A DNA stretch of 53,198 nucleotides, taken from NCBI GenBank assembly GCA_025356015.1, contig JANXYO010000128.1, positions 1 through 53,198 of the forward strand. Reading direction: 5' to 3'. The notes below the pieces were generated by a model. The model made no database searches and was not told the origin of the DNA. It saw nothing but the letters and a program-made list of their open reading frames with translations. A program made the translations under genes and the position numbers. Source of the stretch: Spirochaetaceae bacterium (GTDB lineage Bacteria > Spirochaetota > Spirochaetia > Treponematales > Rectinemataceae). Positions 32,507 to 35,516 of the stretch are shown here, piece after piece; within the stretch, counting starts at the first letter, position 1; every line of letters starts with the position of its first letter.

Positions 32507-34423
32507 CTAGAGCCGCGTCCCGCCCGCGCCGAGCGCCTTGACCATGTACAGCTGGATGTAGAGCTCAAGGGCCTGGTGGTTCTTGATCTTCGCCAGCGAG
32601 GGAGAATCGGCCAGGGTGGCGGCGAGGCTCTTCACCCTGTCCACCGTGAGGGAATCGCCCTTCATTGACCTGAGGATGCTTCGCAGGTAGTCCCTGACGA
32701 GGCTATTCACGTCCTCGCTCAGGTTCTTCTTCGCCTCGAAATTGAGGAGGGTGTTCCAGCGGCTCTCAAGATCGCGCAGGTACTCCTCCAGGCTGTAGCC
32801 CGAGGGGGTGAGCTGCTTGGCCACCCTGACTGCGGCGGCGGCGAACTCGTCCTTGCGCTTGGGCGCGCCGGAGCTGGGAGCCTGCTCAGCCTTGGCCTTG
32901 ACGGGCTCCACCTTGGCGCGGGCCCGCTCGGCCTTGCGCCTGCCCATGCTCCTGAACAGCCGCACAAGGTCGGAGATCACGGGTAGGCTGTACCAGAAAG
33001 GAAGAAGCATGCGGGAATCGGCGAGGAGATCCTTGCGCTGGAGGTCGAGGATCTCCTCGAGCGGAACGAGCTCGTTCTTGTAGAAGAAACGTTCAAGGTC
33101 GGGTGCCGCCTCTCCCCTCACCCTCGCCTCCTCCTGGATCAGGGGGAGGAGACGGGAACCGACAAGGGAGTCAAGGACAGGGAAGCGTTCCTCGACCTCG
33201 CCCTTGAGCATGCGGCGGAACTCGTCCTCCTCCTCCATCGGGGCTGCCGATCGGAATTCCTCGAGGAGGCGGCGCCATTTCTCGATGATCCGGCTGCGGA
33301 TATCGGCCCTCGCCTCGGCGATGGACCTCACCGCGAGGAGGAGGGCCTTGTCCTTGGCCACGTAGGCTCGCTTGCCACCTGCGCTGATGACGAGGAGCTC
33401 GGGAAGCTTGCCCGACTCGGCCTTTGTGCTCTTCTCACGGAGCTGGGCCTCGAGGGTATCGTGGCCAAGCTTTGACACGAAGGGGACGCCCTTCGCATCC
33501 TTGAAGGCCTGGATCTCCTCGATCGAGAAATTGTAAGGCGGCTTCCTGAGCGCGATGTCGAGGGCCTTGACCGCCCCGTCCTGGTCAGCGCGGCGCTGGG
33601 CCTTGCTCTTGAAGTGGTTGGCGTAGAACTCGGTGATGAGGGCAGCCTGGAAGACCGAGAGGTCCTCGTTGCTCCTCTCCCCCTTCTCGAAATCCTTCTT
33701 CACGGCGCTCAGGAGATAGGCCCAGAAGGAGAAAGTCAGGTCCGAGGCCGAACGCTTGAGCTCGGTGATCGCATCGTAGGGCTTGGTCAGGATGGCTGCG
33801 AGTGAGTCCTTGACCTGTGTTTCCTTGCCGGGGAAGGCGTAGAGGAGCTTGTTCTGCATGAACTCCTTGTTCGCTCCCCTGCGCAGATACTGGCGTATCT
33901 TGAGGACCGAATATTCGAGGAGTTTCTCGGGAACAAAGAGCGAGGGTACGACAAAGGGGCGGATGTTCTCCGAAAAGCTGATGCGGTAGAGGGGGATCGG
34001 GCGGTTGGCTGCCTGGTCGGAGACCACGCCAAGATCGGAATCGACGGATATGGTCTGGATCCACTCGCCTGGGACCGCGAGCTTGAGGGAGTCCTCGTCG
34101 GGGAAGGGGACATCGGGATTTTCGTCGATACGGCGGTATTCCTGGAGGTAGGCTTCGGTATATCGCTCGGGAAGGATGATGGCCTTGATCTCGTTGCCCA
34201 CGGTCTCGAGGATGAGCTTGCGCTCCTTCGAGAGGAGGAAAAGCCGTGGCGCCAGCACCAGGTCGGGATTGAGCGAGAGGTCGCGGAAGACGGGCTCTGA
34301 CTGGTCGGCGGCCTTGGCCTGGCGCTGGAGCGCCGAGGCAAAGCCGCGATATTCGAACTCAAAAAGGTGGTTGCGCGAGGAAAAGCTGCGAACCAGCTGG
34401 TATACGTCGATATCCTTCGCCAT
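32507..34423 (-). CDS. Large hypothetical cytoplasmic protein
   Basis: I do not recognise the family of this 638-residue protein. It has no signal peptide or membrane helix. It is rich in charged helices; residues about 490-520 (MGRRKAERARAKVEPVKAKA) form a Lys/Ala/Glu linker before a C-terminal helical domain. The N-terminus MAKDIDVYQLVRSFSSRN is well formed after a TGGAG ribosome site. Codon use matches neighbours, so it is an established chromosomal gene. It stands alone: the buk operon promoter region lies downstream, and the microprotein with its own terminator lies upstream. Large soluble proteins of this sort occur lineage-specifically in treponemes, but that parallel is an impression only. 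Confidence 0.8.
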   Translation of the reverse strand: MAKDIDVYQLVRSFSSRNHLFEFEYRGFASALQRQAKAADQSEPVFRDLSLNPDLVLAPRLFLLSKERKLILETVGNEIKAIILPERYTEAYLQEYRRIDENPDVPFPDEDSLKLAVPGEWIQTISVDSDLGVVSDQAANRPIPLYRISFSENIRPFVVPSLFVPEKLLEYSVLKIRQYLRRGANKEFMQNKLLYAFPGKETQVKDSLAAILTKPYDAITELKRSASDLTFSFWAYLLSAVKKDFEKGERSNEDLSVFQAALITEFYANHFKSKAQRRADQDGAVKALDIALRKPPYNFSIEEIQAFKDAKGVPFVSKLGHDTLEAQLREKSTKAESGKLPELLVISAGGKRAYVAKDKALLLAVRSIAEARADIRSRIIEKWRRLLEEFRSAAPMEEEDEFRRMLKGEVEERFPVLDSLVGSRLLPLIQEEARVRGEAAPDLERFFYKNELVPLEEILDLQRKDLLADSRMLLPFWYSLPVISDLVRLFRSMGRRKAERARAKVEPVKAKAEQAPSSGAPKRKDEFAAAAVRVAKQLTPSGYSLEEYLRDLESRWNTLLNFEAKKNLSEDVNSLVRDYLRSILRSMKGDSLTVDRVKSLAATLADSPSLAKIKNHQALELYIQLYMVKALGAGGTRL

Positions 34424-34462
34424 GGCTCCAGATGGTAGCCGAATTCTGCCGGTGCAAGCAAG

Positions 34463-34492
34463 AAAAAACGACCGCTTCCTTCAAGGAAGCGG
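34463..34492 (-). terminator. Rho-independent terminator of the microprotein gene
   Basis: On the minus strand perfect arms CCGCTTCCTT and AAGGAAGCGG are followed after three bases by six T residues (34463-34468). It lies 28 bases after the stop of the 30-codon gene and before the 638-residue gene. Confidence 0.9.
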
Positions 34493-34519
34493 CCATTGTC
34501 GGGTCGAGGATGCGACGTC

Positions 34520-34612
34520 CTATGCCCGGGTCTTGTGCCGGTTCTTCCTCTTCTTCTTCTTGCGCTTGTGCGTCGCTATCTTCTTGAGCTTTCTTTTTCG
34601 ACCGCAGGGCAC
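34520..34612 (-). CDS. AURKAIP1/COX24 (mS38)-like ribosome-associated microprotein
   Basis: A 30-residue gene reads GTG CCC TGC..., giving MPCGRKRKLKKIATHKRKKK and ending KRKNRHKTRA. The very basic KMxxHKxKKRRKxxRHKxR-like pattern fits the small bacterial proteins annotated as AURKAIP1/COX24-domain proteins, relatives of mitochondrial small-subunit protein mS38. AAGGAG stands about 9 bases before the GTG. A consensus promoter (34672-34700) lies upstream and a strong terminator (34463-34492) downstream, so this is a complete single-gene unit. Likely a ribosomal-subunit component that binds rRNA; the exact role in spirochaetes is not known to me. Confidence 0.85.
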   Translation of the reverse strand: MPCGRKRKLKKIATHKRKKKKRKNRHKTRA

Positions 34613-34671
34613 TTTGGCTCTCCTTCGCGTGGCGATCACGTGACCCCAAGGGAACCACGCGACTGTTGCGG

Positions 34672-34700
34672 ATTATGCATGCTAGCCGCTTTCGCGTCAA
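34672..34700 (-). promoter_or_regulatory. Promoter of the microprotein gene
   Basis: On the minus strand TTGACG (34695-34700) is followed after exactly 17 bases by CATAAT (34672-34677), one mismatch from consensus in each box. The leader would be about 55 bases. Strength fits a constitutive ribosome-related gene. Confidence 0.75.
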
Positions 34701-34763: not shown

Positions 34764-35516
34764 ATGACCGAGTATGTCCATGACGAGGCAATGGTCGAAA
34801 CCTGCATTGGGGAAGACTGCGAAAAAGCCGTCAATCTCGAGGAATTGCGTGCAAAGCTTTCCGATAGGCCCGATTTCCATCCAGACGAGCGCTACTGCCA
34901 CGGTTCGGGCAGGTTTTGCCTCGACGAGGATTTCTGCGTCCAGCTGGTAGCCCACGCCCACCTGCCCACGCGCTTCGGCGATTTCGAGCTCTTTGGCTTC
35001 TACGACGCGCGGGACGACAAGGAACACACCGCCGTAGTCCGCGGCGTGGTCAAGGGAAGGGAGGCGGTGCCAGTCCGCGTGCACTCCGAATGCCACACCG
35101 GGGACGTCCTTGGCTCTTTGCGCTGCGATTGCCGGGACCAGCTCGAGGCCGCACTGACATTCATCGGCGCCCAGGAGGCCGGGGCGGTCCTGTACATGCG
35201 GCAGGAGGGACGCGGGATAGGCCTCCTCAACAAGATCAAGGCCTACCGCCTGCAGGAACTCGGACTCGACACGATCGAGGCCAACCGCTTCCTTGGCTAC
35301 CCTGGCGAAGGCAGGGATTACGGGGTCGCCGCAAAGATGCTGTCCCTGCTCGGCATACAGTCGGTCGCCCTGATCACGAACAACCCCGACAAGATCGACA
35401 AGTTGACCGCCGAAGGGGTCAAGGTGGTCGAGCGCATCTCTGTCATCGCCCCGACCAATCCCCACAACGAGGGCTACCTCTCGGTCAAGCGCGAGAAGAT
35501 GGGCCACCTCCTCTAG
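34764..35516 (+). CDS. ribA: GTP cyclohydrolase II
   Basis: The 250-residue enzyme opens the GTP ring in the first step of riboflavin synthesis. Zinc ligands lie in HSECHTGDVLGSLRCDC, and the nucleotide site in RQEGRGIGLLNKI; NPDKIDKLTAEGVKV and the end MGHLL are family hallmarks. An N-terminal extension of about 55 residues with several Cys/His (ETCIGEDCEK, RYCHGSGRFC) precedes the RibA core and is unusual. It is not fused to RibB and no other rib gene is nearby. AAAAGGAG precedes the ATG. Confidence 0.94.
   Translation: MTEYVHDEAMVETCIGEDCEKAVNLEELRAKLSDRPDFHPDERYCHGSGRFCLDEDFCVQLVAHAHLPTRFGDFELFGFYDARDDKEHTAVVRGVVKGREAVPVRVHSECHTGDVLGSLRCDCRDQLEAALTFIGAQEAGAVLYMRQEGRGIGLLNKIKAYRLQELGLDTIEANRFLGYPGEGRDYGVAAKMLSLLGIQSVALITNNPDKIDKLTAEGVKVVERISVIAPTNPHNEGYLSVKREKMGHLL

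Follow-up and report, generated by a model that had tools for sequence, protein, structure and literature searches.

The window, a 53,198-nucleotide stretch of DNA from a spirochaete, carries a self-contained transcription unit for the ribosomal protein bS22. We read it, with a probability of about 0.93, as a spirochaete bS22 gene with its own promoter and terminator, whose product would bind a pocket of the 30S subunit and whose GUG start codon would keep output low and matched to the supply of 30S subunits. What the protein is, and where its reading frame, promoter, ribosome site and terminator lie, is established from the sequence, while binding in the pocket formed by h2, h27, h44 and h45 is transferred by analogy from the solved ribosome of Borreliella burgdorferi. 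Two elements are new beyond the account of that ribosome in PMC10618245: the prevailing GUG start and a family-specific stem joining the ORF and the 3' UTR.

The bS22 gene of the window

The unit and its neighbours comprise the following features.

34695-34700, minus strand: -35 box TTGACG (promoter scan of the sequence)
34672-34677, minus strand: -10 box CATAAT (promoter scan of the sequence)
34613-34666, minus strand: bS22 5' leader, its transcription start inferred from the -10 box
34620-34625, minus strand: Shine-Dalgarno motif AAGGAG, 7 nt 5' of the GTG at 34612
34520-34612, minus strand: bS22 gene, GTG start, 30 codons and TAG stop
34571-34582, minus strand: 5' arm of the putative ORF/3' UTR stem, codons 11-14, AAGATAGCGACG (folds, compensatory changes)
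34506-34517, minus strand: 3' arm of that stem, CGTCGCATCCTC, just past the stop (folds, compensatory changes)
34462-34497, minus strand: intrinsic terminator, 14-bp stem at 34497-34467 with a loop of 3 and a T-rich tail to about 34462
32507-34423, minus strand: downstream gene of 638 aa, without a Pfam family at E ≤ 0.001
34764-35516, plus strand: GTP cyclohydrolase II gene (PF00925, E = 4.2e-61), divergent from bS22

The near-consensus promoter, good ribosome site and strong terminator claimed in the preliminary description are all present, and they do lie within 240 bases (34700-34462 from promoter to terminator). The promoter, TTGACG-17-CATAAT, has a 17-nt spacer and 10 matches of 12; the scan of 1601 bases, in which 0.4 promoter-like sites were expected, found no other. 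The terminator stands between bS22 and the 638-aa gene.

The product, MPCGRKRKLKKIATHKRKKKKRKNRHKTRA, carries Lys or Arg at 17 of its 30 residues, so the description of a Lys/Arg-rich 30-codon gene holds. A phmmer search against solved structures gave three matches in all at E ≤ 10. The best was chain V of 8FMW, which bears the name 30S ribosomal protein bS22, with 25 identities over 27 aligned residues (E = 2.6e-10). Next came chain 5 of 7JIL, listed as S22 or L38 (E = 2.9e-5), and chain 10 of 9I5V, an AURKAIP1/COX24 domain-containing protein (E = 3.1e-4). The same three chains were found with a 14-row family profile (E = 3.4e-14 to 1.8e-12; 3.4e-14 and 3.9e-14 for 8FMW chain V and 7JIL chain 5). 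Length (28-33 residues) and basic share (about 55-65%), by which membership of the family was judged, also place the window protein in it. By sequence, then, the protein is ribosomal protein bS22, and the ribosome association claimed for it is borne out by the match to 8FMW. The Bacteroidota protein of 7JIL, which we take to be the Flavobacterium johnsoniae ribosome entry, has the same length and the same motif, MPxGKKRK..THKRKK..NRHK, but Ser at position 3 where the window protein has Cys; the Bacteroidota bS22 loci examined have an ATG start and no clear ribosome site by eye, whereas the window gene has GTG and AAGGAG.

Such genes had been called easily missed, and indeed neither Pfam nor NCBIfam recognised the window protein. 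Pfam COX24_C (PF08213) gave no match to it at E ≤ 10 and touched only 3 of the 14 family members (best E = 0.12). The proposed resemblance to AURKAIP1/COX24 is thus upheld by the 30S pocket and not by Pfam: bS22 resembles mS38 in where it sits in solved ribosomes, not through a COX24_C match.

Translation from the upstream GTG at 34639, which would give 39 residues, is very improbable. The 39-codon frame is open up to this GTG, but AAGGAG falls within the extension, 7 nt 5' of the second GTG, and the three solved chains start MPCG, MPSG and MPNG. Moreover, of the 121 loci of the window's class that start with GTG, 90 have no other ATG, GTG or TTG start in frame (among the rest, 19 have another GTG or TTG, 5 have an in-frame ATG and 7 are open beyond the stretch).

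According to excerpts of PMC10618245 (PDB 8FMW), bS22 was found by density in the 70S ribosome of B. burgdorferi. Its gene, bb0822, starts with GUG, was unannotated in its genome and is among the genes without transposon insertions; the protein, 61% Lys/Arg, was the sole ribosomal protein missed by mass spectrometry. It occupies the 16S h2/h27/h44/h45 pocket, touches 23S H68 and is analogous to mS38 and eL41 (PMC10618245). An extra 30S peptide near mS38, which had been proposed as something to seek in spirochaete ribosome structures, is therefore already known at the mS38 site of B. burgdorferi (PMC10618245), and the window gene is a further member of a kind known from a spirochaete ribosome. 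Besides 25 of 27 residues, the two genes share a GUG start, a phylum and the lack of annotation. According to excerpts of PMC10085706, bS22 of C. acnes lies in the same 30S pocket, and mitochondrial mS38 (COX24/AURKAIP1) and cytosolic eL41 likewise place a basic helix there (PMC10618245, PMC6582356), mS38 being longer than the window protein, at 111 aa in yeast (PMC6582356).

From its promoter and terminator, we read the bS22 gene of the window as transcribed by itself. By analogy with these structures, the 30-residue, very basic helix would insert into the 16S pocket of h2/h27/h44/h45, touch 23S H68 on subunit joining and stabilise both the top of h44 on its decoding side and a bridge between the subunits. 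The name bS22 has another use, presumably for the E. coli protein S22/SRA. In a review table, bS22 appears among stationary-phase factors (PMC9409020); as far as the excerpt goes, the entry seems to mean E. coli S22/SRA under a clashing name and not the window's bS22 family.

Spread of bS22 and of its signals in relatives

A bS22 match was found in 57 of the 58 genomes of the order and in 272 of the 294 genomes of the phylum, the latter at least 90% complete (E ≤ 0.1, own genome counted in both sets). Each of the 57 positive order genomes had a single match, and G153, G169 and G300 had two among the phylum genomes listed. The frame is thus conserved in relatives, the point on which the preliminary description had made its claim depend, and the ORF is not a chance one. 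Purine-rich DNA often contains Lys/Arg-rich frames, which would favour a chance ORF lying beside an unrelated promoter and terminator; this reading can be practically discounted, because the conservation of the frame in the order and phylum refutes it and bS22 is kept at 62-100% identity and near-equal length from Bacteroidota to Spirochaetota. The collection scan gave at least 37 bS22 loci, among them Neomarinimicrobiota, Bacteroidota, a UBP2 bacterium and the cultivable relative Gracilinema caldarium (L154). The forecast from B. burgdorferi that bS22 occurs in other species, as worded in excerpts of PMC10618245, is borne out and widened by the phylum count.

A profile search of 39 chosen genomes gave a bS22 match in 26 at E ≤ 1. 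Only 2 of the 15 previously matchless genomes gained a weak match (G067, 0.0057; G077, 4.9e-4), and one earlier positive, G070, became doubtful (E = 0.034, internal stop). No match was found, profile search included, in G021, a genome of the window's own family with 93% completeness, and the genomes of f24, f29, f34, f38, f40, f43 and f44 had no profile match at E ≤ 1. Since 13 of the 15 stayed negative, some lineages seem to be without bS22 or to have a form too divergent to see. Divergent bS22 occurs in deep lineages of the phylum at L238 (G077), L239 (G067), L232, L233, L234 and L237, and several of these forms start PSVKKK.

The expression signals were compared among the families of the class (f1-f19), f1 being the window's family and f7 the Borrelia-type family. 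In genome G227 the bS22 match lies at 867605-867691 and begins where bb0822 is stated to start, which makes G227 probably B. burgdorferi and f7 its family. A promoter-like site within 150 nt upstream was present in 24/29 loci of f1 (1.1 in shuffles), 10/10 of f4 (0.5), 11/11 of f13 (1.9), 9/11 of f5 (1.3) and 45/46 of f3 (11.4), and in only 1/14 of f7 (5.1). Among the matches listed, all f1 promoters were of the TTGAC type with a 17-nt spacer. With 80 nt scanned, a strict terminator was found in 19/28 f1 loci (0.2 in shuffles), 5/10 of f4, 8/11 of f13 and 7/46 of f3, and in none of the 11 f5 or 14 f7 loci; L030, cut at a contig end, was left out of the stem and terminator counts. Because promoters and terminators are uneven across families, the complete self-contained unit is a trait of some families, not all. 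The clear promoter and terminator of the window unit contrast in this respect with the Borrelia-type loci. A GGAG, AGGA or GAGG motif was present in all 142 class loci, and the Shine-Dalgarno spacing was 7 nt in 74 of the 121 GTG loci.

A leader hairpin, CGCGTGG..CCACGCG, adjoining the ribosome site was considered as an operator and rejected: leaders were not clearly stabler than shuffles (mean z of -0.44 for 21 f1 loci, -0.09 for 8 of f4, -0.72 for 9 of f13, -0.2 for 5 of f5 and 0.06 for 3 of f3; -1.25 for the window leader), and a shared structured operator sought in the leaders of relatives showed no clear excess stability. Three genera have leaders too short for an operator-like hairpin, and no Rfam match was found at E ≤ 1. 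Short leaders, 29-38 nt from the -10 box to the start, were seen at L006, L010 (g7), L015 (g8), L020 and L026 (g27), other listed members of the same families having leaders of about 59-83 nt; the short leaders of the three genera suggest promoter relocation. By eye, a subgroup of f1 (L014, L016, L018, L021, L023) has a leader stem of the type GTTGCG...CGCAAC with apparent compensatory changes; a seemingly covarying leader stem was noted by eye in a few genera (g5, g6, g11, g13, g14).

Start codon and putative pairing across the stop codon

The 142 bS22 loci of the class start with GTG in 121 cases, ATG in 20 and TTG in 1. These loci are the best matches plus loci chosen to cover families, not a random draw; L297, a duplicate of L082, was excluded, and 4 loci of other classes were counted separately (ATG in 4/4). 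By genus, 55 of the 67 had GTG only, 6 ATG only and 6 were mixed. Outside the class, ATG was used in 21 of 24 loci (GTG 1, TTG 2; L239 and L240 excluded), and outside the phylum in 21 of 21. The control genes started with ATG throughout: bL34 in the same order (30/30, the best 30 loci; 50 genomes matched), bL36 in the same order (30/30 loci listed; 55 genomes matched) and in the phylum (30/30, 4 of them also in the order set), and bL35 in the phylum (30/30, one read by eye). Since ATG prevails outside the class and phylum, the GUG start is a trait of the window's class, largely kept though ATG is one transition away and although synonymous change is seen at several other positions of the ORF. 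It is not obligatory, as 20 of the 142 class genes use ATG and 1 uses TTG. Among the literature matches listed, no paper describing a class-wide GUG start of bS22 was found beyond the single-species note in the excerpts of PMC10618245.

In f1 and f4, the region past the stop is able to pair with codons ~7-16, and many folds show such pairing for codons ~10-15. The window's own stem is weak (-15.4 kcal/mol, 43 of 1000 shuffles as good) and absent from its MFE fold, and its tail was 10th of the 14 f1 tails. Stems stronger than the window's (-19 to -27 kcal/mol), with compensatory third-position changes, were observed at L002, L005, L012, L029 and L006; L028 showed no stem pairing.

Permutation tests used one locus per genus, leaving deeper relatedness uncorrected. 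Over 20 genera (14 of f1, 6 of f4), ORF nt 25-54 paired with their native tails gave a sum of -341.6 kcal/mol versus -306.4 kcal/mol (sd 10.4) with permuted tails, and 9 of 20,000 permutations were as good; the figure was 5 of 20,000 for f1 alone, and f4 alone was not significant (2697 of 20,000). Pairing peaked at ORF nt 19-48, with a mean of -18.4 versus -10.3 for shuffled tails and 3 of 20,000 permutations as good. The mean excess over shuffles was 6.8 kcal/mol in f1 and 3.3 in f4, other families having little or none (at most 1.3 kcal/mol on average).

Two leader pairings were tried and set aside. Leader pairing to ORF nt 25-54 was rejected (-8.8 versus -8.3 kcal/mol for shuffled leaders), and pairing with the 3' tail showed no excess for leader nt -60 to -31 (-16.5 versus -16.1 for shuffled tails) or nt -30 to -1 (-14.2 versus -13.6). 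Despite this, 350 and 2437 of 20,000 leader-tail permutations were as good, so relatedness or composition contributes some background to the permutation test when it is taken by itself.

Pair counts for a 14-pair helix were limited to 18 of the 29 f1 loci; a MAFFT alignment had misplaced the 3' arm in genus g12 and in f4. Paired cells amounted to 81.7% in these 18 sequences versus 27-52% when the arms were slid. With relatedness uncorrected in each count, 10 cells were changed on both sides versus 3.3 in shuffles (0/500), 3 pairs were changed on both sides versus 1.5 (25/500 as high) and there were 9 further pair types versus 7.6 (60/500). Under synonymous recoding, the mean z of the stem was -1.22 in f1 (14 genera), -0.6 in f4 (6), -0.2 in f3 (13 loci) and +0.22 in f5 (9 loci). 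The Ile12 codon is ATA in 28/28 f1 loci and 7/10 f4 loci, ATA making up 13% of Ile codons in 31 long, mechanically picked ORFs of the window. A covariance model of the stem matched nearly every bS22 gene searched and was uninformative on the extent of the stem because the coding sequence dominates it. The segment CCTGCGGT of codons 2-4, which we take to resemble 16S h45, was dropped as a candidate since codon use there varies. In f1 and f4, a possible role of the stem is to adjust translation or stability.

Proposed control of bS22 synthesis

We infer a conserved low-initiation, possibly autogenous, control of bS22. Combined with a strong ribosome site, the weak GUG would restrain synthesis from a mini-gene whose promoter is strong and would keep it in proportion to the supply of 30S subunits. 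A reason to limit the protein comes from excerpts of PMC10085706, in which free bS22 of C. acnes inhibited cell-free translation in an E. coli system.

The GUG may act passively, one initiation efficiency having been fixed by selection without feedback, and we hold this somewhat probable. The usual 7-nt spacing from a strong ribosome site and the inhibition of translation by free bS22 in vitro (PMC10085706) agree with passive rate setting, which nevertheless leaves the ORF/3' UTR stem unexplained.

Autogenous control would have the GUG sense the state of the 30S subunit, with the stem as part of the device in two families; ribosomes short of bS22, or free bS22 acting on its own mRNA, would shift GUG initiation. 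Such control has been reported for the AUU start of infC, the firmer precedent, and proposed for the UUG start of rpsT (bS20), the closest parallel. The excerpts of PMC10931766 describe rpsT as monocistronic, with a product that contacts h44 and a lineage-specific weak start, which is UUG in enterics and GUG in certain other gamma-proteobacteria. Like bS22, bS20 is thus a small 30S protein made from a single-gene unit with a weak start, but the two proteins are unrelated and the resemblance lies in control only. The retention of GUG across the class while synonymous sites vary, the excess of compensatory changes in the stem and the effects of mS38 loss in yeast, where the decoding centre is altered and initiation suffers preferentially on the mRNAs of COX1-3 (excerpts of PMC6582356), speak for autogenous control. 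Against it, relatives have no common leader structure, the stem is limited to f1 and f4 and does not enclose the ribosome site, and the proposed autoregulation of bS20 is itself neither confirmed nor refuted in the same excerpts (PMC10931766). We regard autogenous control as possible but unlikely. More speculative still is a specific form of it, in which the class-retained GUG would read whether ribosomes carry bS22 and would be joined in two families by a fold of ORF and 3' UTR across the stop.

If this were true, bS22, a protein sitting beside the decoding centre, would join infC and, with less certainty, rpsT as a case of feedback through the start codon, and its operator would lie within the ORF and past its end, not in the leader. 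The prevailing GUG offers a simple, testable case of start-codon-based control of a ribosomal protein, and it may partly explain why genes of this sort go unannotated.
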